DNA from: a virus | Reading direction: 5' to 3' (one strand) | IMG/VR virus record: IMGVR_UViG_3300034682_000221 | Location: 1-38,968 of that record | Length of the DNA: 38,968 nt | Shown here: positions 5,152 through 36,111 of the stretch, in pieces | Position numbering within the stretch: position 1 is the first letter of the stretch | How the letters are laid out: every line of letters starts with the position of its first letter | The notes under the pieces: generated by a model | What the model saw: only the letters and a program-made list of their open reading frames with translations | Told to the model about the DNA's origin: nothing | Database searches by the model: none | Made by a program: the position numbers and the translations under genes

Positions 5152-5493
5152 ATGGCGCTTATCGAGTGTGGCGAATGTAACGGCAAGGTGTCTGACAAGG
5201 CGGCAAGCTGCCCCCATTGCGGGGCGCCGGTCATGCAACTGGCTGATGTGGTGGATACCGGCGACCGGCTGACAACCACGCAACAGACCTCAAAGCAGCT
5301 CAAGGAGCAGGTGCTCTGGGCCTATCTGGTGATGGCTATCGGCGTCGCCATGACGGTGTTCACCCCGCTCTGGCTCAACGCCAAGGGCATTGGCTGGACG
5401 CTCTCCAGCCTCTCTTATGGCGGCTGTGTCCTGCTTGGCGGTGTGCTCTGGCAGGTAGTCAACCAGATCAGGATTTGGTGGCACCACAGATAA
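5152..5493 (+). CDS. Zinc-ribbon membrane protein, moron-like insert in head genes
   Basis: The 113-residue product begins with a rubredoxin-like zinc ribbon (CGEC at residues 6-9 and CPHC near 19-22) followed by a linker and two hydrophobic segments (about 55-75 and 83-103), giving a cytoplasmic zinc domain anchored in the inner membrane. It is not a known head protein. A strong ribosome site (GGGAGGG) fixes the start at 5152. A promoter-like sequence precedes it and an intrinsic terminator follows it, so it can be expressed on its own. This is the layout of a moron, possibly a lysogenic conversion or superinfection-exclusion gene; that role is inferred from context only. Confidence 0.7.
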   Translation: MALIECGECNGKVSDKAASCPHCGAPVMQLADVVDTGDRLTTTQQTSKQLKEQVLWAYLVMAIGVAMTVFTPLWLNAKGIGWTLSSLSYGGCVLLGGVLWQVVNQIRIWWHHR

Positions 5494-5507
5494 CCGGTCA
5501 TCACAAC

Positions 5508-5532
5508 AAACCCCGCTTCGGCGGGGTTTTTT
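5508..5532 (+). terminator. Rho-independent terminator after the zinc-ribbon gene
   Basis: The stem CCCCGC/GCGGGG with a TTCG loop is followed by six T residues; flanking A and T extend the pairing. It ends the moron-like unit before the head-closure gene. Confidence 0.85.
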
Positions 5533-5544
5533 ATTGGAGGTTTT

Positions 5545-5865
5545 ATGGCAGCCGGTGAGCTACGAGATCGGGTCACTCTGCTGACCAGGGCGCCTGGCCG
5601 CGATGGAGCAGGGCAAGCCGTTGACCAGTGGCAACCCTCGCCGACCATCTGGGCCGATGTGAGGATGATCGGTGGCCGCGAGCAGCTGCGGGCAGGCAAG
5701 GAGATTGCCGCCGGTCAGTACACCATCAAGTTTCGCTATCGACCAGGGGTCACGACTGCCCAGCGCCTCTACCTGGTGCAAGACCAGCTGAGCCTCAATA
5801 TCAAACTGGTGCAGCCTGACGCCCGCCGTCAGTGGCTCATCCTGAACTGCGAGGTGGACTCATGA
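5545..5865 (+). CDS. Head closure / head-tail adaptor protein
   Basis: This 106-residue protein matches the SPP1 gp16-like head-closure family: it opens with the typical AGELRDRVTLL segment, then a TIWADVRMIGGRE strand pair, and ends with a beta-rich half (YTIKFRYRPGV). It forms a ring that seals the connector and accepts the tail. A GGAGG site sits 5 bases before ATG 5545. Its stop overlaps the next start as ATGA. Confidence 0.88.
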   Translation: MAAGELRDRVTLLTRAPGRDGAGQAVDQWQPSPTIWADVRMIGGREQLRAGKEIAAGQYTIKFRYRPGVTTAQRLYLVQDQLSLNIKLVQPDARRQWLILNCEVDS

Positions 5866-14700: not shown

Positions 14701-17002
14701 GATCACTGCAGCCCTTGACCTGACCGCTGCTGCCGCTGAACAGGCAGGGCTGGCCGGTATCAATAATGCGCTGGCCGGTGAGGGTGGCGAGCAACGCGCC
14801 CGTCAGGCAGAGGCATCGATCCGCCGCGATCAAAAGGTGCAGCTCGACATGCACCAGGCGCTCGCCAGCGAAGTGACCGAACTCAAGGCCAGCTTTGAGG
14901 GGGAGCAGGCCAGCACCAAGGCGCAGTTTACCGAGGTGCGCGAAGTGGTGGCTGGGGTAGAGCAATCGACCGCCCAGCAGTTGAGCCAGATCAAAACCGA
15001 GTTTGAAGAGGGGGATCGCAAGACCAACGCCGCCCTGCAGGAGACCAGCAAGGCGCTCAGCGATGCCGACAAGGCGCTCGCCGAGCGTGACGAGCTGCTG
15101 CAAGCGGCCATTACCGAGGGGGATGAAACCCTTAGTGCCGCGATTCAGGAGACCAACCGCGCTCAGGTCGAGGGCGATCAGGCGCTGGCCGAGCAGATCG
15201 GCCAGATCAAGACCGAGACCGGCGAGCAAGGGGCGGCCATCACTACCCTGGCCAAAGTGGTCAGCGACAACCAGCAGGCGAGCGCCGAAGCGCTTGAGCA
15301 GCTGGAGGTCAAGACTGACCAGACCAACGCCACGGTGGGCAGCCTCTCCGAAGTGGTGGCCGAGCAGGGCAAGGCGCTGGCAGCCAAGCAGGACGAACTG
15401 TCATCAGAAGTTGACCTGACAGCGCTGGCCAATATCGGCAATGCCCTGGCTGATGAGGCTGGCGAGCAACGCGCCCGCACTGCCCGCGCCGCCATCGTTC
15501 ACCGGCAGGAGACGATGGCAGACGAGCAGCAGGCGATGGCCAAGGAGCTGACCCAGCTCACCGCCGAGTTTGCAGGGGAGCAGGCCAGCACCAAGGCGCA
15601 GTTTACCGAGGTGCGCGAAGTGGTAGCGGGGGTCGAGCAATCGACCGCCCAGCAGTTGAGCCAGATCAAAACCGAGTTTGAAGAGGGGGATCGCAAGACC
15701 AACGCGGCCCTGCAGGAGACTAGCAAGGCGCTCAGCGATGCCGACAAGGCGCTCGCCGAGCGTGACGAGCTGCTGCAGGCGGCCATCACCGAGGGTGACA
15801 ACGCCCTGGGGGCGGCCATTCAGGAGACCAACCGCGCCCAAGCGGAAGGCGATCAGGCGCTGGCTGAACAGCTATCGACCCTGAAAGCCGAGGTAACGAA
15901 GGGTGACAGCGCCCTGAGTGCCGCGATCTCTGAAAGCAACCAAGCGCGGGTTGACGGCGACAAGGCCAACGCCGAGAAGATTGACCAGGTGCAGGCCGTG
16001 GTTGATGACACGTCGGCAGCGGTGCAGACCGTGGCCTCCGCCGTGGCGGATCTGGAGGGGGATGTCGAGGCTGGCTGGTACACCAAGGCGCAGATCAACG
16101 GCGAGGGCGGCGGCTTCGGCCTGTCGGTCAAGCTCAACCCTGACGGCTCGGTGCTGACCAGTTTCCTGCTTGATGCCGATGTGTTTGCCGTGATGTCGCG
16201 GGCAACGGGGGTATCGTCAAAGGTTCACCCGCTGGTCGTCAAAAACGGCAGCGTCTACATGAACCACGCGCTGATGGACACGGCCGAGATCGGCAACGTG
16301 ATCGCCAAGTACATCAACGTGCAGCACCTGAAAGGCACCCTGATCGAGGGCGGCTCTTTCCGGGGTGGTGACCTCTGGTTGGGCGAGAATGCCAACGGCC
16401 AGTTCGGTGCCTACGGCAAGCGCTGGAATGCGGGCATTGATTCCAATGGCCGCTTCTATGGCAGCGATGTCTATTTCTCAAGCGGGACATTCCAGGGCAA
16501 CGTGCTGGCCAACTCCGGCACCTTCCAGAATGTCACCATCAGGGAGAACTGTCAGATCCTGGCTCAGCTGTCAGCGTCTCGAATCGTGGGTGATATCACT
16601 AAGGTTCGAGTGTTCGACCTGCCCGCAAAGAGCGGTGTCATTATCCAGCCTGGTACGGCTGTAACTATGGTTCAGTGTTATTTCGATGCGTCCCCCTACG
16701 ATCAGGAACTGACGATGGAGGAGTTAGCGGTCAGGATAACCCCGTATGACGAGGGGGCGACCACTGCGCGAATTTACGCGCAAGCGGCGGGTGCTGCTGC
16801 GGTTCTTATTGCAGCAGCCACGACCAACTCAAGCCAATTGCCGATATTCGAAAAGATCCCGGCTTGCACCATCTCCATTCCTGCAGGGTCATCGTCGCTG
16901 GTCATCTATTACGTGGCCGAGCGCCGTTCAAACTGGTATTTCTACGCGCAGAGAAAGACGTTTTTCATCAACAAAAAGGGCGGCGGATTTTCCGTCGGCT
17001 AA
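11771..17002 (+). CDS. Host specificity / tail tip protein, J-like, with internal repeats
   Basis: The 1743-residue product is the central tail-tip hub that contacts the host receptor. The first 45 residues are hydrophobic (a gpI-like or tip-plug segment), followed by the hub domains to about residue 450, fibronectin-type modules (about 480-650, with a TYYVWLRAVNAYGKSA motif), and a very long charged coiled-coil region (about 650-1420). A beta-rich C-terminus (about 1430-1743) probably binds the receptor. Two tandem units of about 225 residues (starting near residues 996 and 1221) share a block of more than 70 identical residues. It is larger than lambda J (1132 residues) mainly because of the coiled-coil expansion. 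Confidence 0.92.
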   Translation: MPAAFIPVIAGAAAGLGSALVVSTATAIAIGSAVMSATMMLTMKKPSLGDYRSASERSQVMRAAASDKVCIYGRVISSGLLSIAAEEAGEQDEGELLHLALVLAGTKLSRIGDIWLGDDLVGTYGDLVSWELHADRQTCDPYMLEKCADWKEDMIGKGITWLRLSLKFNAEKFPAGLPNIKVEKFGKEVWDPRDGQWKWSDNSALVILDYYRSWLKVPDDEIRMDEFIVAANICDEIVTVADGKVEPRYTTNVEFDLTEPRAKVLEALHMACCGQPTYIGGKFGILAGAYYGPASDELRPHQLVGDLELLPEPSSSDKINQVAGTFVDPITFKKTDFPAVIVPEWVEEDGGVPLLEDLDLRCVTSEYQAQRIANIILRQRRAARTITCSVNLSGWRYRPGQTIRFYLPALGINGPEFRVSDWAFSLNGGVDLTLREDSPLFWADAIGKPMERPEITELPTGGVAMPDQLRYDVETVGEVVQGVLTWRNSGTVNYNQVIVQRIEPGKAPVTVLTAQVPGQSCRVNGLAAGNYTAMVRALALTGAASPIAAVNFVIAAPATPIGVEVEAGNWTLAFRPKFAGGDGYGVLCEWWVSTINLPIGEVMEKARAAGMGTYMQFGQLKPDTTYYVWLRAVNAYGKSALLAASGKTTYDASSILDIIDGEIGAEHLREELRKPIELIPGISEGLTDLDKVVQEIKPIADRVPELDGKLVGLGDALAALDDRSQKTEDLLRDEQDNLGEMGINNALQQDKIHSKIDRVQAEMGDLRDALFTVDPETGHIEMDAVRALRDETHASFTQVNMGLDAVKGTVALKADHAVVDAQGERLTEAEQVIDGINARLAQTVTKSEFTDEQERLTEVSNSLDATKGELAQKAAQSTVTAQGERLAAAEQKITANSDATSALAQRVEGLKAEVEQGDELLQAIITEVARVSAEANQVTAERVSGLATRTETAEGKIQALEQIIEDDGGITAGRFDEITAALDLTAAAAEQAGLAGINNALAGEGGEQRARQAEASIRRDQKVQLDMHQALASEVTELKASFEGEQASTKAQFTEVREVVAGVEQSTAQQLSQIKTEFEEGDRKTNAALQETSKALSDADKALAERDELLQAAITEGDETLSAAIQETNRAQVEGDQALAEQIGQIKTETGEQGAAITTLAKVVSDNQQASAEALEQLEVKTDQTNATVGSLSEVVAEQGKALAAKQDELSSEVDLTALANIGNALADEAGEQRARTARAAIVHRQETMADEQQAMAKELTQLTAEFAGEQASTKAQFTEVREVVAGVEQSTAQQLSQIKTEFEEGDRKTNAALQETSKALSDADKALAERDELLQAAITEGDNALGAAIQETNRAQAEGDQALAEQLSTLKAEVTKGDSALSAAISESNQARVDGDKANAEKIDQVQAVVDDTSAAVQTVASAVADLEGDVEAGWYTKAQINGEGGGFGLSVKLNPDGSVLTSFLLDADVFAVMSRATGVSSKVHPLVVKNGSVYMNHALMDTAEIGNVIAKYINVQHLKGTLIEGGSFRGGDLWLGENANGQFGAYGKRWNAGIDSNGRFYGSDVYFSSGTFQGNVLANSGTFQNVTIRENCQILAQLSASRIVGDITKVRVFDLPAKSGVIIQPGTAVTMVQCYFDASPYDQELTMEELAVRITPYDEGATTARIYAQAAGAAAVLIAAATTNSSQLPIFEKIPACTISIPAGSSSLVIYYVAERRSNWYFYAQRKTFFINKKGGGFSVG
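14900..15120 (+). repeat. Tandem duplication inside the J-like gene, copy 1
   Basis: This block of about 221 bases recurs 675 bases downstream at 15575-15795 with seven differences, all at third codon positions. Weaker similarity extends on both sides to cover a whole 675-base (225-residue) unit. Confidence 0.95.
15575..15795 (+). repeat. Tandem duplication inside the J-like gene, copy 2
   Basis: This is the second copy of the block at 14900-15120. The encoded residues are identical although seven bases differ, so the protein sequence has been conserved since duplication or homogenised by gene conversion. Confidence 0.95.
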
Positions 17003-19233: not shown

Positions 19234-19265
19234 GCCCCGGCCATGTGCCGGGGCTTTTCTTTTTT
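19234..19265 (+). terminator. Terminator at the end of the late operon
   Basis: The stem GCCCCGG/CCGGGGC with a 7-base loop is followed by a tract of ten T residues broken once by C. It separates the late genes from the LexA-box unit. Confidence 0.88.
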
Positions 19266-19301
19266 CGGCTTGCCCAGCAGGGCGGTCGGTGCCAAAATTG
19301 C

Positions 19302-19317
19302 CTGTATAAAAATACAG
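19302..19317. promoter_or_regulatory. LexA (SOS) box
   Basis: The sequence CTGTATAAAAATACAG matches the gammaproteobacterial LexA operator CTGT-N8-ACAG perfectly, with an AT-rich spacer as in strong sites. It lies 22 bases upstream of the start codon of the following small gene and overlaps a TATAAA that could serve as the -10 element, so LexA binding should repress this gene until DNA damage. Confidence 0.85.
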
Positions 19318-19338
19318 TGCCAGCCGGGAGGGTTGCAG

Positions 19339-19536
19339 ATGAGTGGAGATAATGTGATGGGTGATCACGATGATCAGGTGATCGCTTCATCTGGATCATA
19401 TACGATAGGCCGACTCGCTCAGCGTTTGGCCAGCTTGCTGCCGTTACTCGGCCCGGATGTGTGTGATGCGGTGATCACCAAAGAGATCACCATCGCCGCC
19501 CAGGAGGCGGCCATATTGGCAGCAGCAGAAAGCTGA
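19339..19536 (+). CDS. Small SOS-controlled protein, candidate antirepressor
   Basis: This gene of 65 codons has a strong ribosome site (GGGAGGG, 7 bases ahead of ATG 19339) and sits as a single-gene unit between the late-operon terminator and the replication control region, directly behind a perfect LexA box. The product is acidic at the N-terminus and has an amphipathic helix YTIGRLAQRLASLLPLLG near residues 21-38; no transmembrane segment or known domain is seen. Known SOS-controlled small phage genes of this layout (Tum of phage 186, antirepressors of Gifsy and N15-type phages) inactivate repressors that cannot cleave themselves. That role here is inferred from layout and from the repressor's missing lysine. 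Confidence 0.75.
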   Translation: MSGDNVMGDHDDQVIASSGSYTIGRLAQRLASLLPLLGPDVCDAVITKEITIAAQEAAILAAAES

Positions 19537-19558: not shown

Positions 19559-19586
19559 TTGAACTTATCACATTTTGTGCTAGAGT
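19559..19586 (+). promoter_or_regulatory. Predicted promoter of the rep mRNA
   Basis: A TTGAAC -35 element (19559-19564) and a TAGAGT -10 element (19581-19586) are 16 bases apart, with an extended -10 TG upstream. Transcription would begin near 19592, giving a leader of about 190 bases before repA that contains the antisense target hairpin and the pseudoknot elements. Confidence 0.6.
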
Positions 19587-19644
19587 TGTGGTCATAGGGT
19601 CTCGGAGCGTCCGAGGCGGAAGATTAAATCTGGCAGGATTCCTA

Positions 19645-19685
19645 AATGACGAAAGCCCGCCTTGGCGGGCGGGCTTTCTGATTCG
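19645..19685 (-). ncRNA. Predicted antisense copy-control RNA (Inc/CopA-like), core
   Basis: The opposite strand of the rep leader hairpin would form the mirror hairpin with loop CGCCAA, able to kiss the UUGGCG loop in the rep mRNA. This is how CopA and Inc RNAs control IncFII and IncI-alpha replication. Transcript ends and promoter are not resolved from the sequence; only the core is given. Confidence 0.45.
19651..19678 (+). promoter_or_regulatory. Antisense-target hairpin with UUGGCG loop in the rep leader
   Basis: A perfect 11-bp stem (GAAAGCCCGCC/GGCGGGCTTTC) presents a six-base loop TTGGCG. The UUGGCG loop is the conserved U-turn motif of structure I in IncI-alpha/IncB/IncFII family rep mRNAs, used both for antisense RNA recognition and for pseudoknot formation. 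Confidence 0.85.
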
Positions 19686-19742
19686 GTTGCACCACAAAAG
19701 GGGTGAACACGACTTATCGCACAGTCAGTTTACTCATGGTGC

Positions 19743-19748
19743 CGCCAA
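19743..19748 (+). promoter_or_regulatory. Pseudoknot partner CGCCAA upstream of repA
   Basis: This hexamer is exactly complementary to the UUGGCG loop at 19662-19667 and lies about 37 bases ahead of the repA start. In ColIb-P9 the equivalent long-range pairing switches on RepZ synthesis. Immediately downstream a hairpin CCGCC/GGCGG (19760-19778) would hide the repA ribosome site AGGCGG unless a leader ribosome opens it. Confidence 0.7.
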
Positions 19749-19784
19749 TTGGCAACCTTGCCGCCACTTTTTTAGGCGGAAAAC

Positions 19785-20507
19785 ATGACATTCTCACCGG
19801 CCCATGATGGGCTGAATGTGGGTTCAGGCAACAGATGTGGCCACAACCCAAACAAACCGAAATTCCTCGTGCGCCCTCACGCACACAAAGCGCCTAAGTT
19901 CATTGCCAGGGCCAGAGAGCTGGTCGAGCTTTACTATTCCCGCCTGAAAGAGCTCACGGCGCTGGATGCGCTCAACCCGCACCGCAAAAAACGCTCTGAG
20001 CGCAGAGAAGCCACAATCCAGGTGCTAAAGGCGCTGATAAAGTACCTGGACCTGGTGACCCTTACCGTTGGGATCCCCACCAAGGATGGGCAAGTTGGCC
20101 TGACGTTGCTCAGGTTGCACAAGGAGACATCGATCAGCTGGTCTCGATTCAAGCGGGCTATCGCCGATCTGCGCGAGGCTGGTTTCCTTACTATCAGTCA
20201 GCCAAGAATGACGAACTCAGCGGGTCAGGTGCGTGGCCTGGTGGGTATCAAAGCGATCTCCCCTCGCCTGTTCGAGGCGCTCAAGATCGATTTCTGGTTG
20301 CGCCGAGAGCGCGACAGGGCATCGAAACGCCAACGCGCCAAAGCCAACGAGGCCGGCGTGACTCAGCGCAGTTTCTACCAGCGCTCTAAACCTCTGCGCC
20401 CCGCAATGGCTGCAGGCCACAATTTGCAGACAGCCCAAGGTGTTGGCCAGCCTCCCAGCTGGGCGCAGTTTAAGGCAAGCACAGCGGCCCGCCAGCCGCT
20501 CTCTTAA
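19785..20507 (+). CDS. repA: Plasmid replication initiator, IncFII RepA-like
   Basis: This 240-residue basic protein should bind the origin just downstream and recruit host DnaA and DnaB. Residues 73-160 look like the winged-helix core of IncFII RepA: a helix EATIQVLKALIKYLDL, the LTLLRLHKETSISWSRFKRA recognition-helix region and ADLREAGFLTISQP leading into the wing, followed by a basic linker (WLRRERDRASKRQRAK). R1 RepA is about 285 residues, so this one is somewhat short at the C-terminus. The start is fixed by the AGGCGG ribosome site and by the ATGA overlap with a leader frame. The antisense hairpin and DnaA-box origin around it independently support this call. Confidence 0.8.
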   Translation: MTFSPAHDGLNVGSGNRCGHNPNKPKFLVRPHAHKAPKFIARARELVELYYSRLKELTALDALNPHRKKRSERREATIQVLKALIKYLDLVTLTVGIPTKDGQVGLTLLRLHKETSISWSRFKRAIADLREAGFLTISQPRMTNSAGQVRGLVGIKAISPRLFEALKIDFWLRRERDRASKRQRAKANEAGVTQRSFYQRSKPLRPAMAAGHNLQTAQGVGQPPSWAQFKASTAARQPLS

Positions 20508-20800: not shown

Positions 20801-21341
20801 GCTCCCCAGGGAGAATGCCTGGCTATGCAGGCCAGCAAGCTGGCCGCCGCCAGAGCAAGGTCAACTGCAAGAATGCCTGACCTTGCAGGGCGCAAGCGCC
20901 CGCCGGTCAGCAGGTAACCCCCATTCGTGGGGGCAAGCCCCCACACCCCAGCCCCAAAACCACAGCTCGAACCTGTCATGCCCCATAAAGGGGCCGATCA
21001 CCTTCATGGGGGCGTCAGGCTGTTGTGGCCTTAAAGATAAAAGACGCTCAGCAGGGAGGGGGGTCGCTGTCGCTGTGATACCGCAGTCATTCCTCAACAC
21101 CGGCGACGCAGTGAGCATTAAAAAGAAAAGCCATGCCGCGGCATGGGCAAGGTGTGAGATTGCGTAAAACGAGGCTCAGGCGCGTTAAAGAGGGGAAAGG
21201 CCAGATAATGAAACCGGCCATCGAAATACAACAGAGATGCAACATTTTTAAGGTAGGAGTTCACAGGGTGGCACCTCCCCTTTGTTGTCAGTTTTGGGCC
21301 GTTCGTGGCCAGGCGCAGGCCAACGCCGCCCGCGAACCTGC
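20801..21341. other. Non-coding region with GC hairpins between origin and Xer site
   Basis: No convincing gene is seen. Two imperfect direct repeats share GAATGCCTG, then a TGCAGG core and a hairpin (20815-20853 and 20872-20907), and another hairpin lies at about 20921-20943. A 54-codon frame starting at 21208 has a poor ribosome site and no recognisable features. The part next to the Xer site could hold accessory-protein sites for recombination, but no ArgR or ArcA box was identified. Confidence 0.5.
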
Positions 21342-24163: not shown

Positions 24164-24784
24164 TTATTTGGTAATTCTAAAGAGGTATTTTCCCTTCACG
24201 TTGAGCAGGGCAAGCGCCTGGTCATCGAGACTCTCCAGGGTGCCGCTGGCGTCCTTTATATGCCATCCGCCCACGGCGCTCGGGACAACCCAGCGCGCCA
24301 GTGTCTCGCCGTTCGGATACTCGATGGCGTAGATCCCGCCCTGTGAGACGGTGTCCGCCTTTTCAAACACCGCGATGTCGCCACTGCCCAGGTTGGGCGC
24401 CATGGATTCATCGCTGATGCCCAGCTGGAGCACGTCATCGCTGTTCTTTATATGCGGCGCGATCTTGCTCAGCAGCCAGACCGGCGCCTCCTGGCGCGGC
24501 TCTGCCGGGGTCAGCCCCAGTAAATAGCTGGCGTCTACGCCGAATCGCGGCGCGAACACTTTGTTGATGGCAATCAGCCACCATGCCAGCACCTGCTGAC
24601 GCTGCCCGTTCTCATATGACAGATAGGTCGATTGCCCAATGCCGAGATCCTTGCTGGCCTGCAGGGCGCTGGCATACCTGCCTTTGCGCGCCTGTGCCAG
24701 AGCATGGCCCAGGATGGCTTTTTGTTCTTCGACCATTTCCTCGGTGATGTCACCGATCGTGCGGAGGCTTTGAGGTGTGTTCAT
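24164..24784 (-). CDS. CI-type phage repressor with degenerate S24 peptidase domain
   Basis: This 206-residue protein is the likely prophage repressor. The N-terminal half has a helix-turn-helix (ALQASKDLGIGQSTYLSYEN, about residues 40-59) and the C-terminal half a LexA/CI-like S24 domain: GISDESMAPNLGSGDIAVF places the nucleophile-type serine at residue 127. The usual catalytic lysine (VKR pattern) is replaced: the sequence is GETLARWV, with alanine 163 at the lysine position, and the hinge shows no Ala-Gly cleavage site. It is therefore unlikely to self-cleave and would need an antirepressor. It is transcribed divergently from the Cro-like gene, the classic immunity layout. Confidence 0.85.
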   Translation of the reverse strand: MNTPQSLRTIGDITEEMVEEQKAILGHALAQARKGRYASALQASKDLGIGQSTYLSYENGQRQQVLAWWLIAINKVFAPRFGVDASYLLGLTPAEPRQEAPVWLLSKIAPHIKNSDDVLQLGISDESMAPNLGSGDIAVFEKADTVSQGGIYAIEYPNGETLARWVVPSAVGGWHIKDASGTLESLDDQALALLNVKGKYLFRITK

Positions 24785-34156: not shown

Positions 34157-34324
34157 ATGTGCCCGATCCAGGCGTCTGATCTCGGTCTGCCCCCAGATCA
34201 CCCCCTCACGTTGACGAATGCCGAGTTGGCGGCCCGCCTGCTTGATCTGCTGCCTGCTCTCCCTCCCCTTTACACTCCCCTGGTGCAGGAGGCGGCCCAG
34301 CGTCTGCTTGATCTGGGTGATTAG
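34157..34324 (+). CDS. Small leucine-rich protein antisense to the luxR 3' end
   Basis: This gene encodes 55 residues with a leucine-rich helical part (ELAARLLDLLPALPPLYTPL and VQEAAQRLLDLGD). GGAG lies 9 bases before the ATG. Its last 119 bases overlap, in antisense, the 3' end of the LuxR-type gene, and that overlap corresponds to the LuxR protein's unusual C-terminal tail. It might be an independent regulator or simply a gene that the luxR frame has grown into. Confidence 0.55.
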   Translation: MCPIQASDLGLPPDHPLTLTNAELAARLLDLLPALPPLYTPLVQEAAQRLLDLGD

Positions 34325-35054
34325 CGTGGTCGATCACCTTTGCCCGGTCGAGGGTGATATCCAGCTCCCTGCTGCGCAGCGCCCGCGCCACGGCGTTGTA
34401 ACGATTGGCCGCCCCTAGCTTGCGCCCCGCCGAGTTGAGGTGATGGGTAACGGTGCGCTCAGGGATGCCCATGATGATGCTGATCTCGGCGCTGGTTTTG
34501 CCCTCGCTGACCCAGAACAGGCAATCGGACTCCACGATGGTTAGTGGTCGTGAGCTGGTCGGCCTGCATGCCCGCAATACCGCATCGAGCACATAGGGAA
34601 CAACCAGTGCCAGGGTCGGGGCCGCTTCGATATAAAGCCCAGGCCGGAACTGCTCGGTGATAAAGCTCATCACCCCCGACTCGCCCTTTGGGCCGTGCAG
34701 GGGATACGAGACCCCACAGCGCAACCCGCATTTGGCCGCTTCAACCATCACATCCATCTGCTCATCGTTGCCGCGCAGCTCTTCCCATCTGATTGGCCTG
34801 GTCTGTGAGCGCGCCGCCGCGATAACCGGATCTCTGGCAATCATGCCGTGGCGGTTGTAGTGCTCGATCCACTCGTTCGGGCATGAGTTGAGAATGCGAA
34901 TAATGGGCCGCTGGTTGCTGACCGGGATGATGATGGCGAGTCGGTAATAGTCAAAGCCGAGGCCGTTGATCAGCTGCTCGATGGCGGCGGTCAACTCATC
35001 GGGATCGGTGATGCAGTCGAGTTCGGTCAGGCGCTCAAGCAGGCCATTTTTCAT
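34206..35054 (-). CDS. luxR: LuxR-type quorum-sensing receptor encoded by the phage
   Basis: This 282-residue protein has a full autoinducer-binding domain (about residues 15-165) and a GerE-type DNA-binding domain (about 171-232). All four residues that contact homoserine lactone in TraR are present with identical spacing: Trp62, Tyr66, Asp75 and Trp90. The domain continues with CGLRCGVSYPLHGPKGESG, close to Aeromonas AhyR as I remember it, and the HTH has CLFWVSEGKTSAEI. There is no luxI gene in the window, so it is a solo receptor that should sense the host's signal, by analogy C4-homoserine lactone. About 50 residues extend beyond the HTH, overlapping an opposite-strand gene. Phage-encoded LuxR receptors in Aeromonas phages were reported by Silpe and Bassler (2019). 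Confidence 0.93.
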   Translation of the reverse strand: MKNGLLERLTELDCITDPDELTAAIEQLINGLGFDYYRLAIIIPVSNQRPIIRILNSCPNEWIEHYNRHGMIARDPVIAAARSQTRPIRWEELRGNDEQMDVMVEAAKCGLRCGVSYPLHGPKGESGVMSFITEQFRPGLYIEAAPTLALVVPYVLDAVLRACRPTSSRPLTIVESDCLFWVSEGKTSAEISIIMGIPERTVTHHLNSAGRKLGAANRYNAVARALRSRELDITLDRAKVIDHANHPDQADAGPPPAPGECKGEGEQAADQAGGPPTRHSST

Positions 35055-35117
35055 GATGTGCCCCCAGCAGGCAAAAAACGAGGCGCGTCACCTAGACAGT
35101 GCCAAGATCCATTGTTT

Positions 35118-35136
35118 CTTGACACTCCATGTCAGG
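35118..35136. promoter_or_regulatory. Palindrome upstream of luxR
   Basis: CTTGACA and TGTCAGG flank a 5-base centre (one mismatch). The halves resemble lux-box halves but the spacing is one base longer than in sites 1 and 2. It may allow LuxR autoregulation. Confidence 0.4.
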
Positions 35137-35384
35137 CCAACGCTGGCGCAGGATAGAGACATTTTCATGCCTTCACCAGACAAGAGCAGGCAAACCCCAT
35201 TTTAAGCGTGACAATTCGCTTTTTCGTTCAAGGTGTCACAGTGATATGTGTCACAGTTATCACACGGCAAGATAAATTATCTGATTTTGTGTTGATTGAA
35301 CCGGAATGCCGGTGTACCTTTCTGGCTATGGTGGTCAAGGTTGCAAGCGCTGCCATCGTTCTCCAGATTTCATCCCATGCTTTT
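35137..35384. other. Regulatory region between luxR and the lysis genes
   Basis: No credible gene is seen in this stretch. It holds TGTCAC-type repeats (GTGTCACAGT at 35233-35242 and 35248-35257, plus GTGACA at 35209-35214), a short palindrome GATAAATTATC near 35271, an inverted repeat CCGGAATGCCGG near 35301, and a strong terminator at its right end. It probably contains the late promoter (pR'-like); exact boxes could not be assigned. Confidence 0.5.
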
Positions 35385-35425: not shown

Positions 35426-35665
35426 ATGCTCGAATTACTCCGCCGTCACACAGGCCAGTGCATCGCCTACGGCGGTGGATTCATCCTAAGCATCTGGTCT
35501 GGCCTTGTTCAGGCCGCCGAGAAAGTCCTTTCTGTTCAACTCCCAGAGCCGAACGCCATCAATGCCTTTGTAGGTGTTGGCGGCTTGGTGGCCATCTTTG
35601 GTCGCCTGTTCTTCGACATCTACGTCTATTTCGATAAGCGCCGTCGGCGCAAAGAGGAGGAATGA
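35426..35665 (+). CDS. Holin-like membrane protein
   Basis: The 79-residue protein has two transmembrane segments (about residues 14-33 and 45-68) and a highly charged C-terminus (DKRRRRKEEE), the features of a class II holin that opens the inner membrane to the lysozyme. It is first of the lysis cassette and overlaps the next gene as ATGA. The ribosome site is weak and lies just behind a terminator, so timing may be set at the transcription level. Confidence 0.72.
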   Translation: MLELLRRHTGQCIAYGGGFILSIWSGLVQAAEKVLSVQLPEPNAINAFVGVGGLVAIFGRLFFDIYVYFDKRRRRKEEE

Positions 35666-36111
35666 TGGCCAAGCTGTTTCATCAGCTGCGCGGCCTGCGC
35701 AATAACAACCCCGGCAATATCGACTATCACCCTTCCAATCAGTGGCAAGGGTTGGACAAGGACAAGCCGTCTGATGGCCGATTCTGCCGGTTCGTCAGCC
35801 CAGAGTACGGCATTCGGGCGATGGCTCGCCTGATCCTGAACTACACCAAGCGGGATGGTCTGCCTGGTGTCGGCGGTCACGGCATTGACACGGTAGAGGA
35901 AATCATCAATCGCTGGGCGCCGCCCACTGAGAACGTGACCTCTGCTTATGTCGAGCAGGTGGCCAAGGCGTTGGGCGTCAAGCCTGACACTCCCATCAAC
36001 ATCGCCGACAGGGCGGTGATGCTCTTGCTTGTCGAGTCCATCATCAAGCACGAGAACGGCATTCAGCCGTATAGTGCCGAGCTGCTCCTGACCGGCATTG
36101 ATATGGCGTGA
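35662..36111 (+). CDS. Endolysin-type muramidase/transglycosylase
   Basis: This 149-residue protein starts with a conserved LRGLRNNNPGNIDYH motif and has FCRFVSPEYGIRAMARLILNY, both typical of the structural P5/lysozyme-like family found in phage lysis cassettes. No signal peptide is visible, so export through the holin is expected. It overlaps the holin-like gene by four bases. Confidence 0.78.
   Translation: MMAKLFHQLRGLRNNNPGNIDYHPSNQWQGLDKDKPSDGRFCRFVSPEYGIRAMARLILNYTKRDGLPGVGGHGIDTVEEIINRWAPPTENVTSAYVEQVAKALGVKPDTPINIADRAVMLLLVESIIKHENGIQPYSAELLLTGIDMA

Follow-up and report, generated by a model that had tools for sequence, protein, structure and literature searches.

A small gene behind a predicted LexA box, adjoining rep in Aeromonas-type phage-plasmids, as a probable SOS-induced antirepressor gene

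Small antirepressors under direct LexA control have been proven in the Gifsy prophages of Salmonella, where they are encoded outside the immunity region and act on a repressor that stays uncleaved (Lemire et al. 2011, PMC3121763). LexA-controlled antirepressors are also described for two other temperate phages—N15, for which AntC represents the SOS input (Mardanov and Ravin 2007; PMC10432266, PMC11652158), and coliphage 186, with its protein Tum (PMC3121763; Shearwin 1998, PMC10432266). In linear phage-plasmids from Vibrio and Aeromonas, the small proteins of the TF-smORF modules likewise put CI out of action with no need for proteolysis (Silpe et al. 2023, PMC10432266); these modules, however, are switched on independently of SOS by a transcription factor encoded next to them, and the CI on which they act is SOS-cleavable.

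The DNA analysed here (hereafter the window) is a virus record of 38,968 bases and belongs to a phage-plasmid of the Aeromonas type. Its nearest relatives are Aeromonas phage-plasmids of 38–39 kb—pASaBE4 from A. salmonicida, the plasmid of A. caviae W3 and a plasmid from A. veronii—the gene content of which covers structural genes, ParA, an XRE-type regulator, rep and a CI-like repressor. The gene of interest, coding for 65 residues (Table 1), resembles those of the Gifsy antirepressors GftA, GfoA and GfhA in being small, in its place outside the immunity region, in its predicted direct control by LexA and in the terminator located upstream; the cognate Gifsy repressor is not self-cleaving and the window repressor, judged by its sequence, is not either. 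The Gifsy repressors are nevertheless short (136 residues in the LT2 one), whereas the repressor here has the S24 fold in full length and a dead active site, and the Gifsy antirepressor gene lies near dinI, while the small gene adjoins rep in circular phage-plasmids; no sequence similarity was found between the Gifsy antirepressors and the small protein. N15 is likewise a phage-plasmid with a LexA-controlled antirepressor, its genome yielding the box CTGTGTTTATATACAG in our scan, and its repressor CB also lacks the Ser/Lys pair, the alignment placing Gln at both positions. It is, however, linear, with AntC in a separate anti-immunity locus under a processed RNA, unlike the small gene, which gave no match to the N15 sequence. 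Tum and the small gene would have LexA control in common; a search of the phage collection gave no match in sequence. In contrast to the TF-smORF modules, the small gene has its own SOS box and is accompanied by a peptidase-dead CI, the locus exhibiting a single LexA box at the promoter and no adjacent transcription-factor gene.

Table 1 Positions of the small gene, its flanking elements, rep and the repressor gene in the window
Feature	Position	Strand	Remark
Intrinsic terminator of the preceding tail operon	19234-19254	+	GCCCCGGCCATGTGCCGGGGC then TTTTCTTTTT; kept in relatives
Likely promoter of the small gene	19270-19298	+	TTGCCC (at 19270), 17 nt, CAAAAT (-10, 19293-19298), TG before -10; read from sequence
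Predicted LexA box	19302-19317	+	CTGTATAAAAATACAG; perfect CTGTAT-N4-ATACAG palindrome; probably over the transcription start
Shine-Dalgarno GGGAGGG	19326-19332	+	within the 15-nt leader block CAGCCGGGAGGGTTG
Small gene, proposed SOS-induced antirepressor	19339-19536	+	65 aa; near-invariant N-terminus, variable core
Likely rep promoter	19559-19586	+	TTGAAC, 16 nt, TAGAGT; read from sequence; partly conserved
rep leader	19590-19784	+	highly conserved, strongly structured (structure z -3.7)
rep, plasmid replication initiator	19785-20507	+	same-place genes in relatives annotated RepA
CI-like prophage repressor, degenerate S24 domain	24164-24784	-	Ser kept (DESMAP), catalytic Lys replaced by Arg (TLARWV)

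The preliminary description of this DNA had claimed a perfect LexA box and, behind it, a start codon with a strong ribosome site, and both claims were borne out. The exact palindrome occurs once in the window, the four other matches each having three mismatches, and a first-order simulation expects 0.00 exact boxes and 0.055 of the looser form (CTGTW-N6-WACAG) per 39 kb; it is the sole good box in the window. The Shine-Dalgarno sequence ends 6 bases before the ATG, which lies 21 bases behind the box, and the leader block is identical in seven of the eight Aeromonas-type loci (the window, L001, L002, L003, L005, L006, L007 and L034), with one base changed in L005. The putative promoter, which a sigma-70 consensus scan of the window did not list, is kept in all eight of these loci, and those from Vibrio exhibit TTGCCA, 17 nt and TCTAAT at the matching place, with the box positioned likewise. 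Since the box begins 3 nt past the presumed -10 element, LexA would sit on the transcription start.

The claim that the one-gene unit is bounded by a terminator and the rep promoter held in part: the terminator is present upstream, whereas no terminator-like site separates the small gene from the rep promoter, so that the unit may not be strictly monocistronic. The next terminator-like site is an attenuator-like hairpin with a T-run at 19750-19763 in the rep leader, shortly before rep, and an SOS transcript could therefore run into that leader, which likely serves replication control; that such a transcript would raise replication is speculative. It should be mentioned here that a non-coding block of about 250 bp (20812-21064), folding better than its shuffled versions (z -2.8), is found elsewhere in the window. 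It shares 78–86% identity with sequences from the IncN plasmid pLH87-a-B, an IncX6 plasmid from Citrobacter, Aeromonas plasmids and other phage-plasmids, often adjoining a gene annotated ParM. Homology to this block was dropped as a marker of phage relatives because several of its carriers are conjugative or resistance-type plasmids. No Rfam family scored above its gathering threshold between positions 17,000 and 26,000 of the window.

The protein itself has no recognisable domain, as already claimed: no family of Pfam, PHROG or NCBIfam covers the small proteins, and tblastn of the window protein against 50,697 phage records gave no match, so that these searches revealed no homology to a known antirepressor family. 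It contains nine acidic and three basic residues and was modelled as two helices (pLDDT 74); the model had no significant match in BFVD, where two-helix hairpins match by chance. Codons 1–15 are near-invariant and the variable part (the core) starts at residue 16. In five of the six measurable homologous pairs, dN/dS of the core is 0.17–0.42 and the core thus evolves as a coding sequence; the value of 1.05 in the remaining close pair comes from only nine differences. The DNA of the near-invariant part is rich in GATC, with four sites in the first 20 codons (19363-19397) that are kept in the relatives with almost no synonymous change, which may reflect a DNA or RNA constraint or simply recent recombination. 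The clustering of GATC is conserved, yet its density within one genome does not exceed chance, and it was dropped as evidence.

The arrangement of a LexA box, an ORF of 60–81 residues and rep was found in 24 phage-plasmid records, covering Aeromonas, Vibrio, Aliivibrio, Edwardsiella and metagenomes. The Vibrio phage-plasmids with a like arrangement were reached by tblastn with a distant repressor, and a Vibrio small protein used as a query led to further Vibrio records, an Aliivibrio phage and metagenomic contigs; the unit is also carried by a plasmid from Edwardsiella and by a second type from A. veronii. A LexA-like box precedes the small ORF in all 24 records, being the sole good box in most of them, and this conservation is well beyond chance. 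Five records (L101-L105) were found through protein similarity alone and each has the box, as predicted, that of L105 being the exact consensus CTGTATATATATACAG. The site would place the small gene among the antirepressor genes under direct LexA control. Within the Aeromonas-type loci, rep was confirmed to adjoin the small ORF in seven of eight, no rep match being found in the partial record L006.

A weak signature, approximately L..LLR.L....(E/D)xCDPGL...L..A, is common to the small proteins. In profile comparison, the group L073-L075 was linked to both the Aeromonas group (E 2e-5) and the Vibrio group (E 4e-11), the direct link between the latter two being weaker (E 0.003). A scan of genome contigs yielded no relatives for the Aeromonas profile and, for the L073-L075 profile, nothing beyond the Vibrio HDW18 plasmid already known. 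For the Edwardsiella gene and that of L067, the probable homology to the other small genes is based on their position, their box and a short stretch of similarity. These two (L066 from Edwardsiella ictaluri, 5385-5677; L067 from A. veronii, 35085-35377) are contractile-tail phage-plasmids, in which the distance from box to start codon is about 68 nt, compared with about 20 in the others. A second LexA-like box follows the first at a distance of about 1.6 kb in the Aliivibrio-type phage-plasmids L075 (6731-6746, CTGTGTATTTATACAG) and L104 (7605-7620, CTGTGTATTTACACAG), and the V. campbellii phage-plasmid L074 possesses a umuD gene (15868-16295) with its own LexA box, CTGTATTTATAAACAG.

Catalysis of repressor cleavage by Lys and Ser is established (PMC3121763). 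The active site was placed in the linked repressors by alignment with lambda, VP882, ARM81ld and UmuD, since the structure model of the repressor (pLDDT 62) was too poor for that. In the column of lambda K192, all 24 repressors linked to the small gene have Arg; in that of lambda S149, 10 retain Ser and the other 14 have Ala, Gly or Pro. Ser/Arg is the pair in the window repressor, the linker of which lacks an AG or CG cleavage site, setting it apart from the self-cleaving S24 type with the Ser/Lys dyad and an AG/CG site; no AG or CG is aligned with the lambda cleavage site among the 16 linked repressors aligned. By analogy with other S24 proteins, Arg would be unable to replace Lys here, and the linked repressors, predicted to be incapable of self-cleavage, were counted as such. 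The repressors of lambda, VP882, ARM81ld and L057—the last an integrated A. caviae prophage with structural genes in common with the window—have Ser/Lys and an AG site, and these phages are without the unit of box and small ORF; no LexA box with up to three mismatches was present in the examined stretches of VP882, ARM81ld and L057.

The variable core follows the repressor. A Mantel comparison of identity matrices from the eight Aeromonas genomes gave r=0.94 (p=0.0002) for the core and CI, but r=-0.25 (p=0.83; seven genomes) for the core and the neighbouring rep. Located between rep and CI and linked to the latter, xre, parA and orfA co-vary with CI, and their correlations with the core (xre 0.63, parA 0.79, orfA 0.88) vanish or reverse once CI is held constant, whereas the partial correlation of core and CI remains 0.74 with orfA held constant; orfA, which adjoins CI, is thus a less likely candidate for the partner of the core. 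Two natural mosaics have changed the types of core and repressor and left rep unchanged. The rep of L034 is 98% identical to that of L002, while its core is 28% identical to that of L002 and 71–73% to those of L003 and L007, and its CI 30% versus 82%, respectively. The DNA of L034 and L002 is 91–100% identical through the box and the first codons and 86–100% from the rep leader through rep; the drop is confined to about +38 to +287 of the gene, where L034 is L003/L007-like. The second mosaic, L007, has a rep 97% identical to that of L005 together with a core (88%) and a CI (96%) that are both of the L003 type. The pairing is not always tight—the small proteins of the metagenomic L101-L103 are 97% identical, yet their repressors only 73%—and specificity may therefore be broad within a type. 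That the core follows CI and not the neighbouring rep fits a physical partnership of core and CI.

The same data bear on what else the small gene could do. It might be an SOS-induced regulator acting on rep or its product, so that copy number would rise and lysis would follow from titration of the repressor. Its constant position directly upstream of rep and the missing terminator before the rep promoter fit such a role, but adjacency has not produced any co-variation with rep, and reps 97–98% identical are paired with cores only 28–30% identical, which makes this explanation improbable. A marginally poorer candidate is a modulator of a host target, i.e. of RecA or LexA in the manner of DinI or PsiB, or of cell division in that of SulA. 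A small, acidic and LexA-controlled product would be reminiscent of DinI and SulA; Pfam and NCBIfam, however, gave no match to the DinI, PsiB or SulA families, a conserved target does not account for the hypervariability of the core or for its change of type along with the phage repressor, and the phage with its peptidase-dead repressor would be left without an SOS input. The least probable of the three is that the repressor is still cleaved, either by itself through a Ser-Arg pair or by another protease, the LexA-controlled gene being an accessory. The Ser retained in the window repressor and the basic nature of Arg speak for it, but that Ser is gone from more than half of the linked repressors and the cleavage dipeptide is missing from both the window linker and, in the 16 repressors aligned, the position of the lambda cleavage site.

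We thus regard it as highly probable that the 65-residue protein is an SOS-induced antirepressor of the CI-like repressor of the phage. In the lysogen, host LexA bound to the box would keep the small gene off; upon DNA damage, activated RecA would promote self-cleavage of LexA and the small protein would be made. Its two-helix core is proposed to bind the CI-like repressor and strip it from its operators, allowing the lytic genes to start; the binding of LexA, the contact with CI and the induction are all predictions. The phage would need an antirepressor because its S24-fold repressor lacks the Ser/Lys machinery for self-cleavage. The N-terminus and the leader would then represent a shared cassette and the core would provide repressor specificity, the core being swapped together with the repressor, as the natural mosaics show. 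The preliminary description had taken the gene for the SOS input of the induction switch and its product possibly for a new antirepressor family. This view is supported by the box kept before related small proteins in the 24 phage-plasmids, by the loss of the catalytic Lys from every linked repressor and by the exchange of the core along with the repressor but without regard to the neighbouring rep; a known domain was not found.

The mechanism is already known from Gifsy, N15 and 186, and the protein family, as far as tested without sequence membership in any of these, is a new one within a known functional kind; searches of the open-access literature did not reveal any description of LexA-controlled antirepressors for these phage-plasmids of Aeromonas and Vibrio. 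It also seems rather likely, if with less assurance than for the single protein, that a new and widespread family of small SOS-induced antirepressors constitutes the standard induction input of circular phage-plasmids from Aeromonadales, Vibrionales and Edwardsiella, combining a fixed cassette of LexA box, leader and N-terminus with a swappable core that recombines jointly with the peptidase-dead repressor.

The window also encodes a LuxR-type receptor (34206-35054, minus strand) that combines an autoinducer-binding domain with a GerE domain, its gene pointing away from the lysis region formed by the ORFs 35426-35665 and 35662-36111; a LuxR gene is found near the matching position in the relatives L001, L003 and L056. 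Through this receptor, lysis may also be subject to quorum sensing in phages bearing the proposed SOS antirepressor.

The probable DNA-damage input is thus named for a large set of phage-plasmids with repressors that would not cleave themselves, and the small protein becomes a candidate for inducing them by its expression. The joint exchange of core and repressor offers a natural map of specificity, i.e. of which core fits which repressor, bearing on whether phage-plasmids in one cell could trigger each other as the Gifsy antirepressors do. With the LuxR receptor present in several of these elements, one could compare how quorum signals and DNA damage feed into a single switch. If the proposed family is real, an exchange of about 250 bp would keep induction matched to a new immunity type.
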